DNA of 64,000 bases from Ignavibacteria bacterium. GTDB lineage: Bacteria > Bacteroidota > Ignavibacteria > Ignavibacteriales > Ignavibacteriaceae. This document shows, piece by piece, positions 3,127 to 16,615 of the stretch (position 1 is the stretch's first letter; each line of letters opens with the position of its first letter). The translations under genes were made by a program, and so were the position numbers. Below the pieces are notes generated by a model. The model made no database searches, was not told where the DNA came from, and was given only the letters and a program-made list of their open reading frames with translations. The stretch is from positions 62,001-126,000 of the forward strand of contig JAUXVN010000013.1 of NCBI GenBank assembly GCA_030684555.1. The letters run 5' to 3'.

Positions 3127-4029
3127 TTAATCATCATCATGTTTCTCCCTTTTCTTCTTTTCACGCTCGTTTCGATTCTTCCCTTTGGCTTCATCTTCGT
3201 CTCCTGAACGATGGCATTTCACGCAGTTGATAAAATCGGATATTCCTTCTTTACGGTGTTTTTCAGCAATCCGAGCTGGCTGATGTTCATGACAATTATA
3301 ACATGTATAAAATTCGAAACTCTTCTGGACATCATGACACTTACTACAATCGGATGGATGATGTTTATCGAATCTGAAATATTCAGAGTGTTCAAAAGTA
3401 GACGGCTTCCATCCAGAAGTGGTATGACATTTAACACATAATATTTTTGAGGTTAGCCCTGCATGAAAATCGTCTTTAGGAATATTTGTAAAATGACAGG
3501 ATTCACAATCATTTTTATTCGAAGTAATTAGTTCATGTTTAAAAACTGCTGCAGTCCAAGTCTCAGTTGTATGGCATGAGACACAATTTTCAGAAATCCT
3601 ATTGTGAATTTTATCTATCGGCAATTTTTCTCGATGGCAGCTAACACAGTCATTTATTAATTGCACCGGTAAAACATTATGTCTGAAATTAAGTATTGCA
3701 TTTTCTTTTGATAATCCGTTATGCTCTGTATGACAATAATAACATTCAATGTTGTTAATAGATTTATGGAGTAAGTTCGTTTTAGGATTTTGGAATTGAA
3801 GAGTTAAACCTTCTACTGTTTTAATCCCAACTTCAGAGATATTATGACAATCTAAACATTTCTCTGTTGTTGGTCCAGAGCCAACAACATGACAGGCGAA
3901 ACAATTATTACGCAGTCCATCATGTCCTCTTACAAGAACACCCGGATTTACTGTGTAATAAGGAAATAGATAAATAGAAACTAAACCTAAAAGAATTGTT
4001 ATGGAAAAAAACATTCCGGTTCTATACAT
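3127..4029 (-). CDS. Membrane-anchored decaheme c-type cytochrome
   Basis: A 300-residue protein with one N-terminal transmembrane anchor (about residues 5-25) followed by ten CxxCH haem-attachment motifs (CFACH, CLDCH, CYYCH, two CVSCH, CESCH, CVKCH, CSKCH, CYNCH, CVKCH). No CxxCK or other catalytic-haem variant is seen, so it is predicted to carry electrons, not to be a reductase. The ATG at 4029 is chosen because GGAG lies six bases upstream and the start overlaps the stop of the preceding gene (ATGA); a longer reading from 4119 would overlap that gene by 91 bases. The last 25 residues are an alternating basic/acidic tail (KGKNRNEREKKKREKHDDD). Its immediate partner, a di-heme b-type membrane protein, suggests a quinol- or NADH-linked module delivering electrons to the periplasm. 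Confidence 0.85.
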   Translation of the reverse strand: MYRTGMFFSITILLGLVSIYLFPYYTVNPGVLVRGHDGLRNNCFACHVVGSGPTTEKCLDCHNISEVGIKTVEGLTLQFQNPKTNLLHKSINNIECYYCHTEHNGLSKENAILNFRHNVLPVQLINDCVSCHREKLPIDKIHNRISENCVSCHTTETWTAAVFKHELITSNKNDCESCHFTNIPKDDFHAGLTSKILCVKCHTTSGWKPSTFEHSEYFRFDKHHPSDCSKCHDVQKSFEFYTCYNCHEHQPARIAEKHRKEGISDFINCVKCHRSGDEDEAKGKNRNEREKKKREKHDDD

Positions 4030-4604
4030 CACCATCTCCACAAAAGAATAGTTATTATAATGTGAAGCAGGGCAAACGCAGCAAATATCATTGTAAGAGG
4101 CATGTGTACTTTCCTCCACTTCTGCATGGAATCAACTAAAAGAGAATTGAATAACAATTCTTTCTCCATCTCTTCAGTTGATAATGTTGAATCAATAAGT
4201 TCAGTCTTTTTTTTCTTCAAGCTCTCTTTAGCATTGTTGAGTAGATATTTTCCTGTTAAACCACTCGCAACAACTACTAACATTGAGAAGAGTGCAAGCC
4301 AGGGAATAACTGCATTAAAATGAATACCTCCATGAACTAATATCATTAATGCACCAAACCAACCAAGGAATTCGTGATTTTGCAAAAGTTTTTTTGGCGA
4401 ACCGGAACTGATTAGTTTTCTTTTACGAAGTGAATAAATGAATGAAAGTATAATCAGAAGTGTACCGACGAAACCTAAATATCTTCCAATCCAAACAAAC
4501 CCAAATTGATGGAAGATATAATCGATCAATATTGTTAAGATAATTAGAGTAATAAAAAGTAGGACTGAAGGAATTACTTTCGATATAACAAATTTTATAG
4601 CCAT
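4029..4604 (-). CDS. Di-heme cytochrome b-like membrane protein (short paralogue)
   Basis: A protein of about 191 residues with four predicted transmembrane helices. Two helices each carry a pair of histidines exactly 14 residues apart (H-x13-H): HEFLGWFGALMILVH and HMPLTMIFAAFALLH. That is the spacing that binds two stacked b-haems in four-helix-bundle cytochromes b. The same four histidines and spacing occur in the 289-residue protein encoded at 14427-15296, so the two are paralogues. The ATG at 4604 is preferred over an in-frame TTG four codons earlier because a GAG element precedes it by seven bases. Its stop overlaps the decaheme start, implying translational coupling and probably a physical complex. 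Confidence 0.7.
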   Translation of the reverse strand: MAIKFVISKVIPSVLLFITLIILTILIDYIFHQFGFVWIGRYLGFVGTLLIILSFIYSLRKRKLISSGSPKKLLQNHEFLGWFGALMILVHGGIHFNAVIPWLALFSMLVVVASGLTGKYLLNNAKESLKKKKTELIDSTLSTEEMEKELLFNSLLVDSMQKWRKVHMPLTMIFAAFALLHIIITILLWRW

Positions 4605-4688
4605 TAAAAATCTCAAAAAGTTAGAAACAAAAAATAGATAATTTATTTCTATTCTTATATTTATTTAATTGTTAAGTAAGTCGAAAAA

Positions 4689-5033
4689 TTAAATTTCTAA
4701 ATTAACCACTTCGAAACTACCGTTGCAAATATGACCGGTCAGAGTTATATATTCAGAATTTTCTATCCCAGCTGGCACCAGCAATGTTGTTTGGATTAAC
4801 ATTTCAGTACCGTTTCTATCCTCTACATAAAATTGGGTTCCGTTATCACTTCCCATTTTTTGAATTCCTTTTTCCATAACTAGTTTTACAACAATTTCTT
4901 TTTGAACATGGCTGTCGCGGTCATAATCAGCAAAAGAACCAAGTCCTTTGAATGGTGAAAAATAAAAGAAGTAGACACTTATTAAAACTATACTCAACAA
5001 TAATGGCAAAATTAAATTTTGTTTCTTTAGCAT
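4689..5033 (-). CDS. Membrane-anchored CcmE-like OB-fold protein
   Basis: A 114-residue protein with an N-terminal transmembrane segment (about residues 7-27) and a small beta-rich domain. The pattern of KEIVVKLVMEKGIQKMG, FYVEDRNGTEMLIQ and EYITLTGHICNGSFEVVNLEI resembles the OB-fold of the cytochrome c maturation haem chaperone CcmE. The C-terminal histidine/tyrosine motif (HxxxY) that binds haem covalently in CcmE is absent; the chain stops just after the last strand. It sits between the 34-heme cytochrome and a di-heme b-type gene, so a role in haem delivery or as an assembly factor is plausible. The resemblance is by eye only; a generic OB-fold protein is the alternative. Confidence 0.45.
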   Translation of the reverse strand: MLKKQNLILPLLLSIVLISVYFFYFSPFKGLGSFADYDRDSHVQKEIVVKLVMEKGIQKMGSDNGTQFYVEDRNGTEMLIQTTLLVPAGIENSEYITLTGHICNGSFEVVNLEI

Positions 5034-5071
5034 TACTTATTTCTCAGATATTTTGATAATTCAATGATTAT

Positions 5072-7651
5072 TTAATCCAAAACTCTTTTATTCATTATTT
5101 TGTCACTTGTCCCATTCGGATGACAATTAAGGCAAGCAATACTATTATATGAATAACCATTCACACCGTTGTGTTCGCTGTCCATTTTACTTTTTCTATG
5201 CTCATGACAATCAATACAAGAAAATGTTGTAAAGGTGTTTGGTGTTCGATGACAATCCGAACAAGAGTTCCATTCATTTCGATGTTCTCCAGAATAAATT
5301 GGGAAATACAATACATCATGGTTGAACGATGAGGGGGACCATCCATTTGTAGTGTGACAAACTATACAATCCGTTGGAAACAGTGCCGTTATATGATTCG
5401 GGTTATTTTGTGGATTCTGAAAATCAGATTGATGACATGAATAACAAATTTGAGGAGTGCCTACATAACCGTTAGCATGGCACGATTGGCAGCTTACAGT
5501 CGTGTGCCTGCCAGTCAAAGGGAACTCTGTATTATTATGGTTAAAAGTTGAAGGTGACCATCCATTTGTAGTATGACATACTAAACAATCTGTTGGGAAA
5601 TTTGCAGTCATATGATTGGGATCATTATCGGGATTTTGAAAATCTGCTTGATGACATGAATAACATTCTTGTGGAGTGCCTACATAACCGCTTGTGTGAC
5701 ATGCTTGGCAACTTACAGTAATGTGCTTACCTGTCAAAGGGAACTCAGTATTATTATGGTTGAACAATGATGGAGACCAACCATTTGTACTATGACAAAC
5801 TGAACACTCTGTAGGATAATTTGCAGTAATATGGTTGGGATCATTATTGGGATTTTGAAAATCTTGTTGATGACATGAATAACAGTCTTGTGATGTGCCT
5901 GTATATCCACTTGAATGGCATGATGCACAACTTACTGAAACATGTTTTCCGGTTAATGGGAATGCGGTTGTACCATGATCAAACTGTGCCGGCTGCCAAC
6001 CAACAGTCGTATGACATGTTTTACATTCCTGCGAAAAATTTGCAGTTATATGATTAGGATCATTATTAGGATTTTGAAAATCTTCTTGATGACAGGAATA
6101 ACAAACTTGTGATGTCCCTGTATATCCATTTGAATGGCATGATTCACAGCTTGTCGTGGTATGTTTTCCGGTCAACGGGAATGCAGTTACTCCATGATCA
6201 AACTGTGCCGGCTGCCAACCAGCAGTTGTATGACATGTTTTACATTCATGTGAAAAATTTGCAGTTATATGATTAGGATCATTATTAGGATTTTGAAAAT
6301 CATTCTGATGACATGAATAACAATCTTGTGATGTCCCTGTATATCCACTTGAATGGCATGATTCACAACTTACTGCAGTATGCTTTCCGGTTAATGGAAA
6401 TGCGGTTGTACCATGGTCAAACTGTGTCGGCTGCCAACCAACTGTTGTATGACATGTTTTACATTCTTGTGAAAAATTTGCAATTATATGATTAGGATCA
6501 TTATTAGGATTTTGAAAATCTTGTTGATGACATGAATAACAATCTTGTGATGTCCCTGTATATCCACTTGAATGGCATGATGCACAATTTACTGTACTAT
6601 GTTTTCCGGTTAATGGAAATGCGGTTATACCGTGATCAAACTGTGTTGGCAACCAACCATTCGTTGTATGACATGTTTTACATTCATGTGAAAAATTTGC
6701 AGTTATATGATTAGGATCATTATTAGGATTTTGAAAATCATTCTGATGACATGAATAACAATCTTGTGATGTCCCTGTATATCCGCTTGAATGGCATGAT
6801 GCACAATTTACCGTAGTATGTTTTCCGGTCAATGGAAATGCGGTTACACCATGGTCAAACTGGGCAGGCTGCCAACCATTAGTTGTGTGACATGTTTTAC
6901 ATTCCTGCGAAAAATTTGCAGTAATATGATTGGGAACAGTATTAGGGTTCTGGAAATCTTGTTGATGACATCCATAACAATCCTGATTTAAACCGGTAAA
7001 AGAGTTGGAAGAGTGGCATGCAGAACATTCATTTATTTGATGCCCATCGGTTAAAGGGAAAAAATCGTGAACAAATTTTCCCTCAGCCCATTGTAATCTA
7101 CTTATGGAATGACAATCTGAACAATCGATTGAAAATCCGGCACTTATATGATTGGGATCTACTGTTTTTTCAAAATCAGTTTTGTGGCAATCATAACATT
7201 CAATTCCTTTCGGCTCAAAGATTCTATCAGCATAACCCGAATGACATTGACTACAATCAGCCGACAAGTGACTTCCCAACAAAGGAAATCTTCCCCGCTG
7301 GTGCAATTCTGTTATGTTCGGAATAATCCATGTTGATGTGTTATGGCAAGTAGCACATTCTTTGCTGACACTATTTTGATGAATATCTTTATGACAACTT
7401 AAACAATTTTGTTCAGCTTTGTTGAATACCAATGTTTCATGACATGAATTACAACCTACCGTTTTATGTTGTCCGGTTAATTCAAATCCAGTCGAACTAT
7501 GATTAAACTTAATTGTTTCTGAAAGTGGGATCCATTGTAATTCAGAATGACAATCGGAACATTCTAGATTGAAGTTACTGCCGTGTGGTGATTGGGCATA
7601 AATACCAAATCCTAAGATTACAAATAACACGAAAACCAAAAAAATACGCAT
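5072..7651 (-). CDS. Giant 34-heme c-type cytochrome with tandem three-heme repeats
   Basis: An 859-residue secreted protein with a signal peptide (about residues 1-20, cleavage near YAQ|SPHG) and 34 CxxCH motifs. The architecture is an N-terminal nine-heme region (to about residue 241), seven repeats of exactly 73 residues, and a four-heme C-terminal cap. The first Cys of each unit is at residues 251, 324, 397, 470, 543, 616 and 689, with the cap starting at 762. Each repeat carries three CxxCH motifs plus three further histidines (FDH, GKH and PNH), enough for bis-histidine ligation of all three haems. There is no lipobox, no obvious anchor, and no CxxCK catalytic site. It is a paralogue of the 19-heme protein at 9424-10911, with near-identical ends. 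A 168-bp gap upstream may hold its own promoter, though I see no convincing boxes. The likely role is a periplasmic or extracellular electron wire. Confidence 0.9.
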   Translation of the reverse strand: MRIFLVFVLFVILGFGIYAQSPHGSNFNLECSDCHSELQWIPLSETIKFNHSSTGFELTGQHKTVGCNSCHETLVFNKAEQNCLSCHKDIHQNSVSKECATCHNTSTWIIPNITELHQRGRFPLLGSHLSADCSQCHSGYADRIFEPKGIECYDCHKTDFEKTVDPNHISAGFSIDCSDCHSISRLQWAEGKFVHDFFPLTDGHQINECSACHSSNSFTGLNQDCYGCHQQDFQNPNTVPNHITANFSQECKTCHTTNGWQPAQFDHGVTAFPLTGKHTTVNCASCHSSGYTGTSQDCYSCHQNDFQNPNNDPNHITANFSHECKTCHTTNGWLPTQFDHGITAFPLTGKHSTVNCASCHSSGYTGTSQDCYSCHQQDFQNPNNDPNHIIANFSQECKTCHTTVGWQPTQFDHGTTAFPLTGKHTAVSCESCHSSGYTGTSQDCYSCHQNDFQNPNNDPNHITANFSHECKTCHTTAGWQPAQFDHGVTAFPLTGKHTTTSCESCHSNGYTGTSQVCYSCHQEDFQNPNNDPNHITANFSQECKTCHTTVGWQPAQFDHGTTAFPLTGKHVSVSCASCHSSGYTGTSQDCYSCHQQDFQNPNNDPNHITANYPTECSVCHSTNGWSPSLFNHNNTEFPLTGKHITVSCQACHTSGYVGTPQECYSCHQADFQNPDNDPNHMTANFPTDCLVCHTTNGWSPSTFNHNNTEFPLTGRHTTVSCQSCHANGYVGTPQICYSCHQSDFQNPQNNPNHITALFPTDCIVCHTTNGWSPSSFNHDVLYFPIYSGEHRNEWNSCSDCHRTPNTFTTFSCIDCHEHRKSKMDSEHNGVNGYSYNSIACLNCHPNGTSDKIMNKRVLD
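5369..6901 (-). repeat. Seven tandem 219-bp coding repeats (three hemes each)
   Basis: Seven head-to-tail units of 219 bp, with no indels between them, encode residues 251-761 of the 34-heme cytochrome. The five units at the N-terminal end of the array are nearly identical at DNA level; the last two (5369-5806) are more diverged. Alternation of SQEC and SHEC before the first haem motif of successive units suggests that some duplication steps copied two units (438 bp) at a time. Confidence 0.92.
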
Positions 7652-7819
7652 TATAACCCAATCGACTTTAATCTTTTAAAATAACAATAGGAAATGTTCA
7701 CACTGAAACTACATTATTAAATTTCAAGAGTAAAAATATAATAAAACCTCTATTATGAAAAATTCCTCAATTCATTTTTAATAAATAGACAATTCATCAT
7801 CTTACACTAATCTTAACAA

Positions 7820-9427
7820 TTAAAATCTAGTATTTATTTCTATAAAAAATCTATAATTAATATTTCTCTCCGAATTTATCATCTCTGCATTTAATGAGAG
7901 GAACGACTTTCCAAAGAGTTGCTGCGTTATATCAAAACCAAACAAATTTTGAGATATCGAAATATTGTTTTGGGATAATGTCCATGCAGTATTACTTGCA
8001 TATATAGACGTTGTTAATCGACCTTCAAAAAAAGGTTTACTAAATCGTGCTGAAATTATATTACCATTAGAAAAACTATTTAGAAGTCTTGAAAAATTTA
8101 ATGAAGCACTTCCCAGAAGGTATGGAACTTGAGACCATGTAACGTATCCATTATAGTTCGAAGAAGATTTTGTATCTCCTCCCATAAATCTATGACCGAA
8201 ATTTAACCCAATATAAACATCCCTCACAGGACGAACCGTTGCGCCAACTCTCAAGCCTTGTCTGGTTTCGTTCTCGTAAAGACTGTCAATAAAACTTTTG
8301 AAAGATTCAAGGTAAACAACGTTCTTTCTTGCATCGTAGGAAGCATTAAATGTTAACATTTTCGAAGCTGAAATTCTTGCACTGAAATAAAAACTGGTTA
8401 AGGATAACTCACTTTTGCGAATTCCCTTATTCATTGAGAAGAAATCCACTTCCGATGAAAAATTAATTTGTGTTAATGGAATGAAATCATTGTAATGTTG
8501 AAAATAGATAAATCTTCTATCGATGGAAGTTTTATACATCTGTTGAAAAAGTGCAAATGAGTTTGAGGTAAAACTTTTATTAATAGAATCATTTCTACTT
8601 AGAAAAAAACCGAATTGCGGAAGAATGTTAGTTGTACTATTGTTATCCCAATTCGGGCGTCTTCCTGCAATTATTCCCCCTTCAAAAAAAGAGAATTTAT
8701 GCTTGTAAAGTGCTCCATCAACTGCGCCTATATTTGAAACAGCATTATCTATAAATCTACCAACTGTAACCGATGATTTTTCATTGATGAGATATTTTAA
8801 TGAAAGGTCATAAATCCTAAGATGTTTGTTACTGCTTAACCGGAACTTATCCGGATCACTATTTTTGTAGGAATAAGTCATGTAATTATTGAATATTAAT
8901 TTTTTATCCATTAGTGCATCTGAATAATATGAGAAAGAGTAACGCCATCTTTGAAATGAATAATTACTGAATTCATTATTAAGTCCTGTATAAGATTGCA
9001 GCGAGAATCTTCCTCTTGATTGAGTAGTAATCCTTTTTTCCGATTTGATAATTTGAGAATTGAATTTCATCTTCGCTGCATTTATAGAATCTATCGATGA
9101 TGAATCTGGTAAAATTTTCTCAATCACTTCAACTTTGTTTTTTACTAAAGCAATCACGGTCTGGTTCATCACCAATTTAATATCTGATATATATTCTCCC
9201 GATACAGATTTGCTTGAGGTTTGCACTACTCTAACTACAGGTAACAATTTTTTATTCACTTCGGTAAAAAGTGTGTCCCCAATATTTATTCCAATAGTAG
9301 ATTCATAACCAACATAAATTTTTTGAATGCTAATAAAAGTAACTCTACCAGCAATTTTCTCTATGTTCGTTTGACTGAACATAATTATTGGTAAAAAAAT
9401 GAATAAAATTAATTTAATCCTTCTCAA
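7820..9427 (-). CDS. Outer membrane beta-barrel (putative porin of the cytochrome conduit)
   Basis: A 535-residue protein with a signal peptide (MRRIKLILFIFLPIIMFSQ) and a small N-terminal domain (about residues 25-105, SH3/flagellar-P-ring-like strands). The remaining 380 or so residues are amphipathic beta-strands with aromatic girdles (RWRYSFSYYSD, YNGYVTWSQVPYLLGSASL), ending in FIEINTRF, a C-terminal Phe. No haem motif is present. The start overlaps the stop of the 19-heme gene by 4 bases (ATGA), so the two are translationally coupled. Placement between two multiheme cytochromes mirrors porin-cytochrome conduits (MtrB/PioB/OmbB-type), but I see no specific sequence signature of those families. 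A specific sheath for a cytochrome is therefore an inference from context. Confidence 0.7.
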   Translation of the reverse strand: MRRIKLILFIFLPIIMFSQTNIEKIAGRVTFISIQKIYVGYESTIGINIGDTLFTEVNKKLLPVVRVVQTSSKSVSGEYISDIKLVMNQTVIALVKNKVEVIEKILPDSSSIDSINAAKMKFNSQIIKSEKRITTQSRGRFSLQSYTGLNNEFSNYSFQRWRYSFSYYSDALMDKKLIFNNYMTYSYKNSDPDKFRLSSNKHLRIYDLSLKYLINEKSSVTVGRFIDNAVSNIGAVDGALYKHKFSFFEGGIIAGRRPNWDNNSTTNILPQFGFFLSRNDSINKSFTSNSFALFQQMYKTSIDRRFIYFQHYNDFIPLTQINFSSEVDFFSMNKGIRKSELSLTSFYFSARISASKMLTFNASYDARKNVVYLESFKSFIDSLYENETRQGLRVGATVRPVRDVYIGLNFGHRFMGGDTKSSSNYNGYVTWSQVPYLLGSASLNFSRLLNSFSNGNIISARFSKPFFEGRLTTSIYASNTAWTLSQNNISISQNLFGFDITQQLFGKSFLSLNAEMINSERNINYRFFIEINTRF

Positions 9428-10911
9428 TCTAATCCTAATCTCTTTAAATGAATTGGTCTATCTTCCCTTCCATTGGGATGGCAGGTGAGACATGCATTGC
9501 TGTTATATGAATATCCACTCACACCGTTATGTTCACTATCCATTTTAGTCTTCCGATGCTCATGACAATCAATACACGAGAATGTAGTAAAGTCATTTGG
9601 GGTTCTATGGCAATCGGTGCAGTTTGTCCATTCGTTTCGATGTTTGCCTGAGTATATCGGAAAATATAAACCGTCGTGATTAAAGGTTGATGGTGTCCAG
9701 CCATTAGTTGTATGACATGATAAACATTCGGTAGGAAAATTTGAAGCAATGTGATTCGGATTGTTTGTTGTTCGTTCATAATCCGACCTATGGCATGTAT
9801 AACAATCAAGTGCGGTACCTGAATAACCGCTCGAATGACATGATTGGCAACTAACAGTTGTGTGTTTGCCGGTTAATGGAAACTGAGTTGTATTATGATC
9901 GAAAGTCGCCGGTTCCCAGCCATTTGTTGAATGACATGATTTACAATCCTGTGAAAAATTTGCTGTAATATGATTTGGATCGTTTAAAGGATTTTCATAA
10001 TCAGAACGGTGACACGAATAACAATCAATTGCAGTTCCGGAATATCCTCCTGAATGACACGATTGGCAACTCGCTGAAGTATGTTTTCCGGTTAAGGGAA
10101 ATCGTGTTATGTTATGATCAAAAGTGGCAGGTACCCATGAATTTATTGAATGACATGCTTTACAATCCTTCTCAAAATTAGCAGTTAGATGTTCTGGATT
10201 TGCAGCACTCACATAATCGCTTTTATGACATTCATAACAATCTTTAGAAAGTCCAATAAAACTGGACTGAGAATGACATAAAAAACAATCATTAATTTTA
10301 TGTCCACCAATCAACGGGAAAATATCATGAACAAAACTTGAATTAGTCCAGGCTACTTGATTAATCGAATGACATAATTTACAATCTGTGCTAAGACCTA
10401 CTGTTTTGTGGTTTGGATTTACTGTATTAGCATAATCAGTTTTGTGACAATTATAACAGTCAACATTTAATGGTTCGAATACTCTATTAGAATAACTTAA
10501 ATGACACTGACTACAATCTGCAGCGAGGTGACTCCCTACTAACGGGAACCTGCTTCTCTGATGCATTTCTGTTATGTTTGAAATATTCCAACTTGCTGTG
10601 TTATGACAATCTGCGCAATCTTTACTTACACTATTCTGATGAATATCTTTATGACAACTCAAACAACTCCGCTCACCGTTTGAAAAAACTAAAGTTTCGT
10701 GGCATGATATACAATTTAAAGTTTTATGTTGTCCGGTTAATTCAAAAACGGTTGTGTTATGTTGAAATTTTATATTTGCAGATATGGGAGTCCATTCTTT
10801 TTCTGAATGACACTCAGAACAATCTAATTTAAAACTACTCCCATGTGGAGATTGTGGAAAAACAATTCCAATAAAAGAAAAAACTAATATGATGTATGGC
10901 AAAATGCGCAT
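9424..10911 (-). CDS. 19-heme c-type cytochrome (short paralogue of the 34-heme protein)
   Basis: A 495-residue secreted protein with a signal peptide and the same mature start (QSPHGS) as the 859-residue paralogue. It has 19 CxxCH motifs: nine in the N-terminal region, two 73-residue three-heme repeats (first Cys at residues 250 and 323), and a four-heme cap starting at 396. The length difference to the paralogue is 364 residues, one less than five repeats. Extra FDH, GKH and PNH histidines per repeat support bis-His ligation. Its start codon lies inside the last 28 bases of the 20-heme gene, and its stop overlaps the start of the barrel gene. This tight coupling suggests it is the partner of that barrel. 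Confidence 0.9.
   Translation of the reverse strand: MRILPYIILVFSFIGIVFPQSPHGSSFKLDCSECHSEKEWTPISANIKFQHNTTVFELTGQHKTLNCISCHETLVFSNGERSCLSCHKDIHQNSVSKDCADCHNTASWNISNITEMHQRSRFPLVGSHLAADCSQCHLSYSNRVFEPLNVDCYNCHKTDYANTVNPNHKTVGLSTDCKLCHSINQVAWTNSSFVHDIFPLIGGHKINDCFLCHSQSSFIGLSKDCYECHKSDYVSAANPEHLTANFEKDCKACHSINSWVPATFDHNITRFPLTGKHTSASCQSCHSGGYSGTAIDCYSCHRSDYENPLNDPNHITANFSQDCKSCHSTNGWEPATFDHNTTQFPLTGKHTTVSCQSCHSSGYSGTALDCYTCHRSDYERTTNNPNHIASNFPTECLSCHTTNGWTPSTFNHDGLYFPIYSGKHRNEWTNCTDCHRTPNDFTTFSCIDCHEHRKTKMDSEHNGVSGYSYNSNACLTCHPNGREDRPIHLKRLGLD
9727..10164 (-). repeat. Two tandem 219-bp coding repeats (three hemes each)
   Basis: Two adjacent 219-bp units encode residues 250-395 of the 19-heme cytochrome. 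They have the same period and motif layout as the seven-unit array in the paralogue at 5072-7651. Confidence 0.85.
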
Positions 10912-12473
10912 TTAAAATCAGCTAATTTGTAATTAATAAATATTATTCCATTTTTTTCAGCAGGTTTATGACAACTATTACATTCAAGTTTACTGTGAGC
11001 ACCACTCAAATTAAACCTTGTTTTATCGTGATTAAATTTTTCCGGTTTCCAATTATCGAACGTATGACATTTTTCACAAACAGTAACACCATTTTCAGAA
11101 AATTGTCCAATGTGAATGTCTTTATGGCAGCCTTCACATTTTTTATCAACTGATTCGAAGACTATTTTTTTGCCGTCATAATCCTGTTTTACATGGCAGT
11201 CAATACAGTTTTTTGCTGCATGTTTTCCTAATAATGCAAATCCTGTCAATTTGTGTTCAAAAGTTACAATATTCCAACCTTCTACGCCATGACACAGCGC
11301 ACAATTGTTGTTAATTAAATATTTTTCTTTCAACTCTGTTTTGTGAATATTTTCATGACAATCGATACAATTATTTCCTTGTTTATCAAAAGTCCAAATC
11401 TCATTCTTCAGATGACAATTACTACATGGAAGAGCTAAATGTTTTCCGGTCAGTGGAAATTTCGTTTTTTGATGTTCTTCTAAAGTGAATAACGAGGGTG
11501 TAAATCCTTCCACTGTATGGCATACCGAACATTCCCCTTTATTTTTATGATTTGCAAATTCAGTTTTGTGATAATCTGAATGACAATCTGAACAATTTTG
11601 GTGTTTCAACTTTGCGGTTAAATTAGTTTTATGACACGTTGAACATTCAACCTGGATATGTTTACCAAGAAGCGGAAAGATTGTTTTGTTATGATCAAAG
11701 GATGATTTATTGATGTCATGAAAACTATTGGTATTATGACATTTGGTGCAATCATTCCCAAATTTTCCGTTGTGAACATCTTTATGACAAGAAAGACAAC
11801 TCGAAAAGTTTATACCTTTAAAAGTCTGAAAATCTTTTCCGTTTTTTTTCTCCTTTGTATGGCATTTTATACATTCAGTATCTTTATGCTTCCCGGTCAA
11901 GTTAAATTTAGATTTTGTGTGATCAAAATTAACTGCTGGTTTGAAGGAATTAAACCCATGACATGAAGAACAATCACTCCCCAAAGTTTTTTGATGATAA
12001 TCAACATGACATGAAAGACAGTTTTGCTCTAATCCTAAAAAAGTAAATTTTCTTTTTTTTAGTTTTGAATCAGAAATATTTTTTGATGTATGACATTTTT
12101 CGCAGTCTGTTTCTTTGTGTTTTCCTTTCAGCTCGTAACCGGTTTTAATATGATCGTAATTGTTTTTATCGAACCGAATTATCTTGAAATTTCTACCATG
12201 GTGCTCACTATGACAATCCCAGCATTCCTTATTCTTAATCTCATTTGAAGAATGATAACCTCTTCCTTTATTAATCAAATTTTTAAGTTCAACATGACAA
12301 TTAAGGCATTTAGATTTTTCAACTTTTTCACCAAGCTGATGACAATTGGTACAATTGCTCAATCCTTCAAGCTTTGCGTGTGCTTTTGATAAATCGCCCG
12401 GAGAAATTTGACTGTAAATTTCAAAAGAAGAAATAAGTAGGATCAAAAAAATAATTCTAATAATATTTATCAT
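10884..12473 (-). CDS. 20-heme periplasmic c-type cytochrome
   Basis: A 529-residue protein with a signal peptide (MINIIRIIFLILLISSFEIYSQ) and 20 CxxCH motifs, spread to the very C-terminus (CAFCHTSY). Recurrent GKH, FDH and DYH/DIH histidines between the motifs could provide sixth ligands. The architecture is looser than in the 19- and 34-heme proteins: repeats of about 65-75 residues are visible but are interrupted by lysine-rich loops. No CxxCK site is present. Its start overlaps the stop of the Fe-S/FAD oxidoreductase by 4 bases. The lysine richness and position suggest a soluble periplasmic carrier between the inner-membrane module and the outer-membrane conduit; that order is inferred from gene order only. 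Confidence 0.87.
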   Translation of the reverse strand: MINIIRIIFLILLISSFEIYSQISPGDLSKAHAKLEGLSNCTNCHQLGEKVEKSKCLNCHVELKNLINKGRGYHSSNEIKNKECWDCHSEHHGRNFKIIRFDKNNYDHIKTGYELKGKHKETDCEKCHTSKNISDSKLKKRKFTFLGLEQNCLSCHVDYHQKTLGSDCSSCHGFNSFKPAVNFDHTKSKFNLTGKHKDTECIKCHTKEKKNGKDFQTFKGINFSSCLSCHKDVHNGKFGNDCTKCHNTNSFHDINKSSFDHNKTIFPLLGKHIQVECSTCHKTNLTAKLKHQNCSDCHSDYHKTEFANHKNKGECSVCHTVEGFTPSLFTLEEHQKTKFPLTGKHLALPCSNCHLKNEIWTFDKQGNNCIDCHENIHKTELKEKYLINNNCALCHGVEGWNIVTFEHKLTGFALLGKHAAKNCIDCHVKQDYDGKKIVFESVDKKCEGCHKDIHIGQFSENGVTVCEKCHTFDNWKPEKFNHDKTRFNLSGAHSKLECNSCHKPAEKNGIIFINYKLADFKCAFCHTSY

Positions 12474-13807
12474 TTTCGATGAGACAACAATGCCTCTCCA
12501 AATTTTTTAGTAATAGTAATTCCGGTTTTCTCAAGAAACTGGGTGGGTAGTTCACCTCCGGCAAAAATATAGACCAGATCATTCGTCAGTTTAATAGACT
12601 CTTTTGTTACTGAATTTTCTAACAGAACTAAATCATCTTCAATCTCAATAACGTTTGTGTTAAATAAAATATTGACTAAACCCTGTTTTCCTGCATGAAG
12701 AATACGTTCATTGTTTTTAGGTTTTATTCGTGCAAAATTAGCAGCTCTATAAGAAAGAGTTACATCATTAGAATTTTCTGCAAGCAATAATGCCGATTCA
12801 ATTGCAGAATCACCACCGCCAACAACCAATATTTTCTTCTTGTTTATTAATTCAGGTTCCAACAAACGATAATAAACATTTTCCTTTTCCTCTCCTTTAA
12901 CACCAAGTTTGCGCGGTGAGCCTCTTCTGCCGATCGCTAAGAGGATTGAAGAAGCCGTATAGTTTTTTTTATCTGTAAAGAGAGTAAAAACATCCTTTTC
13001 TTTTTCAATTGCAGTTACTTTTTCTAACTCATTAATGCTAATAATATTTTTTTCGAGAACTGATTTCCATATAGAGATAAGTTCCGCTTTTGAAGTTTCG
13101 GTTAATTTAATTTTACCCCAAAGCGGGAGTTCCATTGGTGAAGTCATAACAATTTTATCCCGTGGAAAATTGGAGACTGTTCCACCAAGACTCTCCTGTT
13201 CGATAATTTGAAATTTCAAATTGTGCTTCTTTGCATTTAGAGCAGCAGAAATTCCGGCTGGACCCGCACCGACGATAATCAAATCATTTTCTGCATTTGA
13301 TTTTTTCGGTAGCTTTTTGACAATATAATTAACTGCTTGCTTTCCCTGTTCAACGGCATTCTTAATCAAACCCATCCCACCAATTTCACCTGCAATAAAA
13401 ATGAGCGGAACACTAGTTTCAAATTCAGAACTTACATGTGGAAGTTCAACTCCGCGTTTCTCGGTTCCAATACATAAAGTTATTGCTTGAACAGGGCAAG
13501 CATGAAAACATGCACCATGTCCAACACATCTTGAAGCATTTATTACTGCGGCTTTACCGTTTCTCCATCCAAGTATATCTTTTTCCGGACATGCTTCAAT
13601 ACATGCACCGCTTCCGATACAAGAATTTATATCAACAACAGGATGAAGAGATACGGGTTCATAAAATCCACCTTCTTTCGCCTTCATTATTTTCTGCTCT
13701 GTAATGGAAGTGCGCTTTGCTGTCTTTTTGAGGTATCTCCAAAAAATGACGATAACTACTATAGCTGTTATGACGTATGCTGCAATATTTTCAATTAAAA
13801 CTTCCAT
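12470..13807 (-). CDS. Membrane-anchored ferredoxin-FAD-NAD(P)H oxidoreductase
   Basis: A 445-residue protein. Residues about 5-24 form one transmembrane helix followed by KKTAKR, placing the rest in the cytoplasm. Next comes a ferredoxin-like domain with two motifs, CIGSGACIEACP and CVGHGACFHACP. Then follows a thioredoxin-reductase-like flavoprotein fold with an FAD site (VGAGPAG, about residue 177) and an NAD(P) site (VVGGGDSAIE, about residue 330). Both ferredoxin motifs lack the second cysteine of the usual CxxCxxCxxxCP (Ser and His occupy that place), so the cluster type is uncertain. It is encoded 3 bases after the TPR gene and overlaps the 20-heme gene. The likely role is exchanging electrons between NAD(P)H and the membrane/cytochrome chain. 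Confidence 0.82.
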   Translation of the reverse strand: MEVLIENIAAYVITAIVVIVIFWRYLKKTAKRTSITEQKIMKAKEGGFYEPVSLHPVVDINSCIGSGACIEACPEKDILGWRNGKAAVINASRCVGHGACFHACPVQAITLCIGTEKRGVELPHVSSEFETSVPLIFIAGEIGGMGLIKNAVEQGKQAVNYIVKKLPKKSNAENDLIIVGAGPAGISAALNAKKHNLKFQIIEQESLGGTVSNFPRDKIVMTSPMELPLWGKIKLTETSKAELISIWKSVLEKNIISINELEKVTAIEKEKDVFTLFTDKKNYTASSILLAIGRRGSPRKLGVKGEEKENVYYRLLEPELINKKKILVVGGGDSAIESALLLAENSNDVTLSYRAANFARIKPKNNERILHAGKQGLVNILFNTNVIEIEDDLVLLENSVTKESIKLTNDLVYIFAGGELPTQFLEKTGITITKKFGEALLSHRK

Positions 13808-13810
13808 AAA

Positions 13811-14416
13811 CTATAAACGATCTATTGAGGTTGAAGCTAATTGTGCGGTAGGTGTTTCGGGATATTTTTTAATTATTTCCTGCCAGATTTTTTTTGCTTT
13901 ATCTTTATCACCTTTAGCGGCGAAAATTGCACCAAGATTGTATTCAGCTTGTTCATCATTTTTATCAAAAGATAAAATTCGATTCGTGAATTCTTCAGCT
14001 TTGATTAAGTCTTGATTATTGAAGTATATTATTGATAAGTTGAATAGAACATCTTTTCTTTTGGAATTAATTTTCAATATTTGGTCGTAATACTGAATAG
14101 CTTCAAGCGGTTTATGACCTTCATTTAGAAGGTCAGCATATTGGCGCATAGACAAAGTATCTTTTGGATTTGATTCAACTTTTAATTTTAGATCCGCTAA
14201 TTGTTTGCGAAAATTCTCATTTACATTCGCCCTTGTTGGAGTTTCGGCATTCCCCAGGTTTTTATGTACATCGTCCATCGGCATTTGTTTCTCCTCAATC
14301 GAACTGAGTGGAGTTGATGTTTTCTCCTTTTCAAATTGAGTTACAAGAATGACACCAACAACCAGAATTAAAAAAAATGCCGGATAAAATATTTTTGTTG
14401 AAAATTTAAAATTCAT
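13811..14416 (-). CDS. Membrane-anchored TPR protein of the cytochrome operon
   Basis: A protein of about 201 residues. The ATG at 14416 is chosen because AGGAG lies six bases upstream; an earlier in-frame ATG at 14449 would overlap the preceding gene. An N-terminal transmembrane segment (FFLILVVGVILV) is followed by a charged linker and three to four tetratricopeptide repeats (e.g. ALEAIQYYDQILKINSKR-like, AEEFTNRILSFDKNDEQA, AKKIWQEIIKKYPETP). The layout resembles CcmH/NrfG/CycH-type TPR proteins that present apocytochromes to haem lyase, and its operon encodes cytochromes, so a scaffolding or maturation role is plausible. The alternative is a generic complex-assembly factor. Confidence 0.7.
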   Translation of the reverse strand: MNFKFSTKIFYPAFFLILVVGVILVTQFEKEKTSTPLSSIEEKQMPMDDVHKNLGNAETPTRANVNENFRKQLADLKLKVESNPKDTLSMRQYADLLNEGHKPLEAIQYYDQILKINSKRKDVLFNLSIIYFNNQDLIKAEEFTNRILSFDKNDEQAEYNLGAIFAAKGDKDKAKKIWQEIIKKYPETPTAQLASTSIDRL

Positions 14417-14426
14417 AATTAACTCC

Positions 14427-15296
14427 TTAAAAAATCCATTTATATCCAAAAAGAATCGTTACTCCAACGTGGATTAACATAATAACGAACATCGTAATTG
14501 CAAAAGGCAGATGGAATATATGCCAATATCTAAAAAGCCGATGCATCAATTTTAAGTGCTGAATTCTTCTGGACATTATTAATCTTTCTTTTAATCTGTT
14601 TATAGTTTCAACAACTTCAATTTTACTAAGTCCTTTTTCTGTTTTCAGTATAGATTTTATCGACCTTAATAATTTCCGAATCTGAAACATATCTCTAACT
14701 ATGAATATTAAACTGTTTACCGCCGTAATATTCCGATATCTTTCCCCTGATAAATATGAATCTACTTTAGACCTAATATCATTATTTAGATTTATGCTTG
14801 ATGTAAAACTTTGTTCTAATTGATTTTGAAGTTCTTCTAAGTCAATCTCTTTTCCTTGAATGGTTCGAGGAATCTGAATGTAAATAAATCTACCGATCAC
14901 ACCACTCAAAACTACTGCAACCATACTCCAAAAACTTATTGAGACTATTCCGCCAAATTTAAATGCCGTATGAAACAATACAAGCAATGGTCCAACACTG
15001 CACAAAAACATATGGAACTCTAACCAATTCTTTAAATAGCCGAATGAAAACAAAACACGCATTCTTTTACGAATCATATAAACAGAAACTCCAATGATCA
15101 TCATCAGAGTACCGATTATTCCTAACCCGTGACCGATATAACCACTTGGCTTTAGCAAATCATGTTTAATATCAAACGGACGCTCTTCCAATTGAAGTGA
15201 ATAGTAATCAACTCCATGATAAATCAGAAGAAATAGTGAGGTTATCCCTACGGCAAAAAATATTCCGATATAAATACGATGAAGAGTTTTATTCAT
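14427..15296 (-). CDS. Di-heme cytochrome b-like membrane protein (long paralogue)
   Basis: A 289-residue protein with about five transmembrane helices, first gene of the 12-kb cytochrome locus. Two helices carry H-x13-H pairs (HMFLCSVGPLLVLFH and HLPFAITMFVIMLIH), the geometry of a two-b-haem four-helix bundle. A cytoplasmic or periplasmic insertion of about 90 residues with coiled-coil character (about residues 145-245) separates the third helix from the last. The final 30 residues and the histidine layout match the shorter paralogue at 4029-4604. It could be a quinol dehydrogenase feeding the multihemes, or it could pass electrons from the adjacent NAD(P)H oxidoreductase. No family name is certain. 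Confidence 0.68.
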   Translation of the reverse strand: MNKTLHRIYIGIFFAVGITSLFLLIYHGVDYYSLQLEERPFDIKHDLLKPSGYIGHGLGIIGTLMMIIGVSVYMIRKRMRVLFSFGYLKNWLEFHMFLCSVGPLLVLFHTAFKFGGIVSISFWSMVAVVLSGVIGRFIYIQIPRTIQGKEIDLEELQNQLEQSFTSSINLNNDIRSKVDSYLSGERYRNITAVNSLIFIVRDMFQIRKLLRSIKSILKTEKGLSKIEVVETINRLKERLIMSRRIQHLKLMHRLFRYWHIFHLPFAITMFVIMLIHVGVTILFGYKWIF

Positions 15297-15418: not shown

Positions 15419-15724
15419 TTACTCAAAAACTAATTCATATAAAGTGTTATATTTAGTTGTACCCGAAACTTTTAAATCTTCAATTTTTGATATTAAAATT
15501 GACATGCGTTCGTTCTCACCGTCATCATAATTATCATAAGCTTCTTTTGAGTTGAAGACGTAAACTTCTTCAAAATGATTTGCTTTACCTTTTACTTCGT
15601 AAACTGTATAACTTACTAAACCATCGGCTTTTAAAAAAGTACGCAACTCCTTAATCGCATTAAAATATTCTTCCCTATTAGAAGCATCAATTTCATATTG
15701 AACCGAAAAGATCACTTTACCCAT
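15419..15724 (-). CDS. Small ABM-like dimeric alpha/beta barrel protein
   Basis: A 101-residue protein with the beta-alpha-beta pattern of the antibiotic-biosynthesis-monooxygenase/dimeric alpha-beta barrel superfamily (VIFSVQYEIDASNREEYFNAI, VSYTVYEVKGKANHFEEVYVF, AYDNYDDGENERM). Members are haem-degrading enzymes, quinol monooxygenases or proteins of unknown role. No haem-ligating His can be singled out. It lies between dapF and the cytochrome locus on the same strand, 122 bp upstream of the first di-heme b gene. Confidence 0.55.
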   Translation of the reverse strand: MGKVIFSVQYEIDASNREEYFNAIKELRTFLKADGLVSYTVYEVKGKANHFEEVYVFNSKEAYDNYDDGENERMSILISKIEDLKVSGTTKYNTLYELVFE

Positions 15725-15745
15725 TTTATCTCCAACTATTTTTTA

Positions 15746-16615
15746 TTATAAATTAAAATCAATTAAACCTGTGAAATTTATTTCAGCAGGACCTGTTAAC
15801 GAAACATTACTATATTCATTATTATCAACTAAAAATTCAACTCTCAGAGTTTTACCTGTCACAGTTTCAATTGTAATAGGTGATTCAATGCCAAACAAAC
15901 TATTTGCGACTATTGCAGATGCAACTGAACCGGTGCCGCAGGCAAGAGTTTCATTCTCAACTCCCCTTTCGTAAGTGCGAATATTTATTTTACCCTCTGC
16001 AATACTGATAAAATTAACATTAACTCCATCGGGAGCAAAATCTGAAGAGTAACGGACTTCCTTTCCAATTTTGATTAGGTCCAACTCTTCTAAAGATTTA
16101 TAAAATGATTTTGGATTATTAACATCTCTCAAAATATCCGTCACTAAAATTACAACATGTGGTGAACCCGTATCAACAAATGATGCATTAATTAACTGTC
16201 CGTGTGCTTTAATTTTGAAGTTGAACTTTAGTTTATCTGGACTTCTTAGAAAAAACTTAACATTACCAGAGTTAATTAATTCACCTTTATAAACTAAATT
16301 ATTGCAAAGAAATTTAGTTTCGTTACCGAAATATTTTCCTTTAATGGAAGCAAACTTAATTGCACATCTTGCACCATTTCCACATAGTGAACCGAGAGAA
16401 CCATCAGAATTAAAATATTCCATGACAAAATCATATCCATCATCATTCCTTATGGTGATTATACCATCAGCACCAACACCAAATTGTCGGTTGCAAATTT
16501 TCTTGACAAATTCGGAAGTGACACTCAATCCCTCATTTTTTTCAAGATCAAAGAGAACGAAATCGTTCCCGGCGCCATTCATTTTGGTAAAAGAATATTT
16601 TTCCATGCCATGCAA
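15746..16615 (-). CDS. dapF: Diaminopimelate epimerase
   Basis: A 289-residue enzyme converting LL- to meso-diaminopimelate for lysine and peptidoglycan synthesis. The signature segments are NGAGNDFVLFD near the N-terminus, the first catalytic cysteine in LCGNGARC (about residue 78), the GSPHVV substrate loop and the second catalytic cysteine in ACGTGSVAS (about residue 225). Length is close to the family norm (about 270-280). The start may be three codons inside the listed one (MEKYSFTKMNGAG). It is separated by 21 bp from the small ABM-like gene downstream. Confidence 0.95.
   Translation of the reverse strand: MHGMEKYSFTKMNGAGNDFVLFDLEKNEGLSVTSEFVKKICNRQFGVGADGIITIRNDDGYDFVMEYFNSDGSLGSLCGNGARCAIKFASIKGKYFGNETKFLCNNLVYKGELINSGNVKFFLRSPDKLKFNFKIKAHGQLINASFVDTGSPHVVILVTDILRDVNNPKSFYKSLEELDLIKIGKEVRYSSDFAPDGVNVNFISIAEGKINIRTYERGVENETLACGTGSVASAIVANSLFGIESPITIETVTGKTLRVEFLVDNNEYSNVSLTGPAEINFTGLIDFNL

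Follow-up and report, generated by a model that had tools for sequence, protein, structure and literature searches.

A cluster of ten electron-transfer genes spans 15296-3127 on the minus strand of a 64-kb stretch of the genome of an Ignavibacteria bacterium (assembly GCA_030684555.1, contig JAUXVN010000013.1, positions 62,001 to 126,000; the window). Its conserved core, 15296-7820, probably encodes a porin-cytochrome conduit of the PCC3 type for exporting electrons, which has in addition an NAD(P)H dehydrogenase and a wire that can be extended by tri-haem units. The core consists of a b protein with two haems (bA), an Fe-S/FAD oxidoreductase (FAD), a cytochrome of 20 haems, an array cytochrome and a 22-strand barrel, and often also of a TPR protein. 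From sequence we infer the direction of the electrons, the incorporation of the haems, the place of each cytochrome, the acceptor and a role in extracellular electron transfer.

The Bacteroidota are not usually counted among the wire-making bacteria. If the reading is true, a conduit that runs from Ignavibacteria to Bacteroidales and Saprospiraceae widens the reach of extracellular electron transfer across a major phylum, and PCC3, a type of unproven function, gains a candidate cytoplasmic source of electrons, whilst the 3n+1 rule described below makes wire length a countable trait, comparable with habitat, current and distance. The conduit type itself is already known; what looks new against PCC3 is the invariant flavoprotein, the Bacteroidota hosts and the stepping by three haems.

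Gene content of the locus

The genes of the core, with the second array cytochrome that follows it, are:

14427..15296, minus strand: bA, 289-residue di-haem b-type inner-membrane protein with five transmembrane (TM) stretches (invariant histidines, motifs, AlphaFold)
13811..14449, minus strand: TPR protein with N-terminal membrane anchor, an optional part (Pfam TPR families)
12470..13807, minus strand: FAD, membrane-anchored NAD(P)H oxidoreductase with two Fe-S motifs and a YpdA/TrxR-like flavin domain (Pyr_redox_3 1.4e-44, Fer4 families)
10884..12473, minus strand: MHC20, 20-haem c-type cytochrome with signal peptide, probable periplasmic bridge (20 CxxCH)
9424..10911, minus strand: MHC19, array cytochrome of 19 haems, 3x6+1 (19 CxxCH, tri-haem units)
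7820..9427, minus strand: outer-membrane barrel with signal peptide, small N-terminal beta domain, linker and predicted 22-strand barrel (AlphaFold, Foldseek)
5072..7651, minus strand: MHC34, array cytochrome of 34 haems, 3x11+1, the second array copy, after the barrel (34 CxxCH, nine tri-haem units listed)
5330..6982, minus strand: 219-bp tandem repeat inside MHC34 (Tandem Repeats Finder)

Counting CxxCH in each open reading frame (ORF) gave four co-directional cytochromes with 20, 19, 34 and 10 motifs, 83 in total and exactly as the original prediction had it, and the window holds no further CxxCH-bearing ORF of at least 90 residues. The Pfam families Cytochrome_C7, Cytochrom_c3_2 and Cytochrom_CIII score above their cut-offs in all four. 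The histidine totals are 71 for the 34 haems, 40 for the 19 haems and 44 for the 20 haems, thus bis-histidine ligation is possible for every haem. The motif count also bore out the claim that the four cytochromes carry no CxxCK catalytic haem. With no CxxCK and no such family above cut-off, a nitrogen or sulfur oxyanion reductase, which the original prediction had named as the finding that would count against it, is rejected. Scans for promoters and terminators did no better than shuffles.

Conservation of the core across Bacteroidota

The original prediction treated the ten genes as one system, a view that has to be given up as they are two modules, the conserved core and a second module (4616-3127) that is found elsewhere in relatives. 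The usual order of the core in relatives is bA, TPR where present, FAD, 20-haem cytochrome, array and barrel, and it is in deeper families that FAD is placed after the barrel or divergently upstream. A search with bA of 391 genomes of the class, with up to 20 kb inspected around 80 matches, found a match in 108 genomes, a minority of these being partial or of the shorter bB type only; many of the genomes compared are metagenome bins. A scan of named genomes gave at least 568 relatives, the best 80 of which come from Ignavibacteria, Bacteroidales, Saprospiraceae and other Bacteroidota with the order mostly unchanged. Altogether the core gene order is kept in about 150 loci across the phylum. 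FAD is present in all 96 loci that have bA, MHC20, array and barrel, with the TPR gene in 41 of them. The synteny proposed as a check in other Ignavibacteria recurs for the core, but does not extend to the second module. In the window a 19-haem array stands before the barrel and the 34-haem array after it, across a gap of 168 bp.

Upstream of bA are genes of 101 and 289 residues (window 15419-16615). An ORF pair of the same sizes precedes bA in many loci of Ignavibacteriaceae, a hint that the locus has been inherited vertically at a single chromosomal site. Plasmid pEMTOL02 of Emticicia oligotrophica (L139, 12899-24697) also carries the whole core. Immediately upstream of it is a ccsA-type gene for cytochrome c biogenesis, which suggests that the core has spread horizontally together with a haem-attachment gene of its own. 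Among the plasmids searched with barrel and array Emticicia is the sole carrier, and no PCC3 was found among plasmids.

The inner-membrane b protein and the flavoprotein

The bA protein has five hydrophobic stretches, HX13H pairs at residues 95/109 and 262/276, SGVIG (SGxxG) at residue 131, and the sequences WLEFH and WHIFH. Its four histidines are invariant in 40 aligned homologues, and both HX13H pairs, SGxxG and the C-terminal WX3HX13H occur in 142 of 142 homologues. The charge distribution points to TM3 and TM5 being parallel, with one haem probably near each face of the membrane. The paired HX13H is present in bA; the protein has no match to the Ferric_reduct profile, and no ferric reductase stood out in fold searches that were themselves uninformative.

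FAD begins with an N-terminal anchor followed by positive charges, because of which its body is suggested to be cytoplasmic. The flavin domain is YpdA/TrxR-like, with Bdr, TrxR and FNR as solved relatives, and scores 162.9 bits against the YpdA model, the cut-off of which is 339.9 bits. In the alignment GAGPAG replaces the YpdA cysteine and the flavin domain contains no CxxC; a role as a thiol reductase of the YpdA or thioredoxin reductase kind is rejected, as the active-site cysteines are missing. Fe-S motif I reads CxxSxxCxxxCP in the window and CxxCxxCxxxCP in deeper families, the position of the second cysteine being Ser, Thr or Cys by clade. Motif II is CxxHxxCxxxCP (CVGHGxCxxxCP), in which a histidine at residue 97 replaces the second cysteine and is invariant in 31 of 31 aligned sequences and in 95 of 95 among those fitting the pattern. 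It is possible that motif II holds a histidine-ligated or a three-cysteine cluster.

Array cytochromes that step by three haems

The original prediction missed both the conservation across the phylum and a rule in the arrays. With haems counted as Cx2-4CH, the number is 3n+1 in 97 of 102 complete arrays, over a range of 10-70, and with strict CxxCH the figure is 78 of 102; a binomial test of 3n+1 against one third gives 6e-40, a value inflated by shared ancestry. As 18 different array haem values obey 3n+1, many separate changes must have kept the rule. Within MHC34 the repeat is 73 residues, that is 219 bp and three haems, in 7.5 tandem copies with an 84% DNA match, and the identity of its tri-haem units is 63%, against 50% between MHC34 and MHC19. 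Over all arrays the gap is smaller, with 41% within and 37% between. The tri-haem domain TIGR04257 matches five stretches of MHC34 weakly, at 37.8 bits against a cut-off of 40.

The partner cytochrome is far less variable, with 20 haems in 116 of 136 MHC20 homologues and 23 in 15 of the 136, many of the latter from Saprospiraceae, again a step of three. MHC20 has a weak match to 3oue (E=0.0096). These results point to the array as a wire that is lengthened and shortened by whole tri-haem units whilst the inner bridge is held at a fixed span.

Comparison with PCC3

PCC3 was described in Proteobacteria as a porin with an extracellular cytochrome (median 34 haems) and a periplasmic cytochrome (median 21), having 22-39 residues per haem, together with an inner-membrane protein of about 300 residues with five TM stretches, SGxxG and two WX3HX13H motifs (He et al. 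2017, PMC5566968). The core resembles this in each part: bA at 289 residues has five TM stretches and the same motifs, the 19-, 34- and 20-haem cytochromes have about 26 residues per haem, inside the published range, and an outer-membrane porin is in the same cluster. The motifs are not unique to PCC3, as the inner-membrane proteins of PCC4 share SGxxG and HX13H (PMC5566968). Where the core differs is in its Fe-S/FAD oxidoreductase, always present, in its Bacteroidota hosts, in a barrel of 22 strands where many PCC3 porins have more, and in array haems that step by three, whereas in Gallionellaceae the PCC3 haem numbers (10-18, 26-35) take many values with no such rule (PMC10734462). The core is PCC3-type by its organisation and motifs, likened to PCC3 through the published description and not a proven member of it. 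The earlier view that the composition is unlike the well-known conduits thus stands as far as MtrCAB and CymA go, judged by profile, but a precedent exists in the PCC3 type (PMC5566968). Searches of the open-access literature found nothing on PCC3 with Ignavibacteria or on Saprospiraceae multihaem conduits.

The AlphaFold model of the barrel (pLDDT 87) has 22 long strands, with a small domain at the N-terminus and Phe as the C-terminal residue, and the top Foldseek matches are all outer-membrane barrels. In Pfam it has no match at E<=1, including MtrB_PioB (PF11854), a model that finds another protein of the same genome at 1.4e-64. The trans-envelope conduit first proposed has gained from finding the same b protein, oxidoreductase, cytochromes and barrel together across the phylum and from the predicted 22 strands; transfer at the surface is what we infer.

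A proposed route for electrons and its alternatives

In the proposed route NAD(P)H would reduce the flavin of the cytoplasmic, membrane-anchored FAD, the Fe-S centres of which would pass electrons to bA, and the two b haems would then move them across the inner membrane. MHC20 would span the periplasm and connect to the 22-strand barrel, with the arrays (19 and 34 haems) as the outer wire to an external acceptor, their reach set by the number of three-haem units. Such a path from NAD(P)H to the exterior would use up membrane potential, as an NAD(P)H oxidase does, and therefore it may as plausibly serve redox balance or overflow as respiration. More tentatively, and with a less than even chance, the core may be a phylum-wide valve for electrons from NAD(P)H to the exterior, aerobes included, that combines a His-substituted Fe-S flavoprotein, two b haems, a fixed 20-haem bridge and a surface wire whose length could evolve stepwise by recombination of the three-haem unit.

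Several points weigh against the exporting conduit. No lipobox or known surface-export signal was seen on the arrays. The AlphaFold model of bA (pLDDT 82) found no informative solved relative in fold searches, its matches being long-helix coincidences with one cytochrome bc1 chain low in the list. Some of the carriers, Emticicia among them, are known as aerobes. The function of the prototype is itself unproven, PCC3 genes being down-regulated on Fe(II) in Sideroxydans ES-1; both PCC3 copies in strain CL21 are expressed above the mean, their role there being untested.

An unlikely, but the best surviving, alternative is that the conduit is quinone-linked, with bA exchanging electrons with the menaquinone pool and FAD being a side input or serving another purpose. 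This is the model of He et al. for PCC3, whose clusters are without the flavoprotein (PMC5566968), and FAD does not adjoin bA in the several families where it is divergent or after the barrel. Its presence in 96 of 96 core loci speaks against this, and its membrane anchor and Fe-S motifs suit the feeding of a membrane haem protein. It is less probable still that the conduit runs inward and supplies the making of NAD(P)H or respiration with electrons from Fe(II), minerals or partner cells. PCC3 was first found in iron oxidisers (PMC5566968) and this genome has three COX1 oxidase family genes, which make oxygen-linked uptake conceivable, but by established bioenergetics electrons from iron would have to go uphill to reduce NAD(P)+ and the b-haem path would be opposed by the membrane potential, and the PCC3 genes of ES-1 fell on Fe(II). 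The weakest alternative, that the arrays stay periplasmic as a haem capacitor for redox buffering with the barrel used in transport or assembly, accords with the 10-70 haem range, the missing surface signal and a storage role suggested for PCC3 (PMC10734462), yet sits badly with a barrel conserved in the same operon and a partner of near-fixed size, which is expected of a span and not of a store.

Other conduits and relatives

The core is like MtrCAB, MtoAB and PioAB in having a barrel and multihaem cytochromes that would cross the envelope, and differs in a barrel without an MtrB_PioB match and in having no NapC/CymA-type protein, as the original prediction had also noted: none of the ten proteins matches a NapC/CymA-type tetrahaem quinol dehydrogenase above cut-off in Pfam or NCBIfam. 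For DmsE/MtrA (TIGR03508) MHC20 and MHC10 reach 38.9 and 28.7 bits, far below the cut-off of 192.2, and the OmcA/MtrC family (TIGR03507) gives 30.2 against 209.3 bits. PF22113, for domains II/IV of MtrC/MtrF, is above its cut-off of 30 in MHC19 (44.3) and MHC20 (37.0), matches that we read as shared haem spacing. HmcA, QrcA, ExtN and DmsE were rejected as identities, with scores far below the cut-offs.

A separate conduit is encoded elsewhere in the genome (contig C19:1193-4635, L265), where a 302-residue, 10-haem cytochrome adjoins an 841-residue MtrB_PioB porin, the protein found at 1.4e-64; with these the genome is therefore equipped for such chemistry. On contig C38 (L260, 5091-8860) cytochromes of 6, 12 and 4 haems surround an ORF of 429 residues, possibly a further porin-cytochrome set. 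The pcc cluster IALB_1838-1840 of Ignavibacterium album, of the same bacterial class, likewise has a porin and a large multihaem cytochrome, and is set apart by description with its 14 haems and its own porin (PMC4245776).

The GSU1996-type tri-haem c7 cytochromes of Geobacter are alike in their tandem c7-like units of about 75 residues and three haems. They are not known to share a conserved operon with a porin, a b protein or a flavoprotein. Plasmid b-protein/c3 pairs of proteobacteria also have a small membrane protein of the HX13H type next to a cytochrome of 7 haems and a reductase, but the latter is a 2Fe-2S enzyme of another family and there is no barrel or array. Plasmids of Glaciecola, Spirosoma, Variovorax and Sphingomonas (L140, L141, L222, L224) bring together a small b protein, a c3-type cytochrome and a 2Fe-2S/FAD reductase. 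This set, a cousin of the inner-membrane part without a porin, is often close to genes for copper or other metals or to a NiFe hydrogenase. In other Bacteroidota (L242, L243, L244, L247) a bA-like protein, a cytochrome of 10 haems and flavoprotein-like genes form a distinct but related module that lacks array and barrel.

The second module and its neighbour

The remaining genes of the cluster are:

4689..5033, minus strand: small membrane-anchored protein, not core (no profile match)
4029..4616, minus strand: bB, shorter di-haem b protein, paralogue of bA, second module (HX13H pairs, SGxxG)
3127..4119, likely start 4035, minus strand: MHC10, 10-haem cytochrome with N-terminal anchor, second module (10 CxxCH)

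The label of CcmE-like given earlier to the 4689-5033 protein is not upheld, as it has no Pfam or NCBIfam match at E<=1 and is unlinked to the core elsewhere; it is common in Ignavibacteria, with a paralogue in the same genome, and its relatives do not lie beside the core operon where inspected.

The bB protein has HX13H pairs at 81/95 and 171/185 together with SGxxG. In relatives the pair of bB and the 10-haem cytochrome has no barrel or flavoprotein nearby, and the two would form a separate inner-membrane-to-periplasm module that adjoins the core here by chance. The start of MHC10 is probably the ATG at 4035, close to which the signal anchor begins; translation from the GTG at 4119 would mean an overlap of 91 nt with bB.

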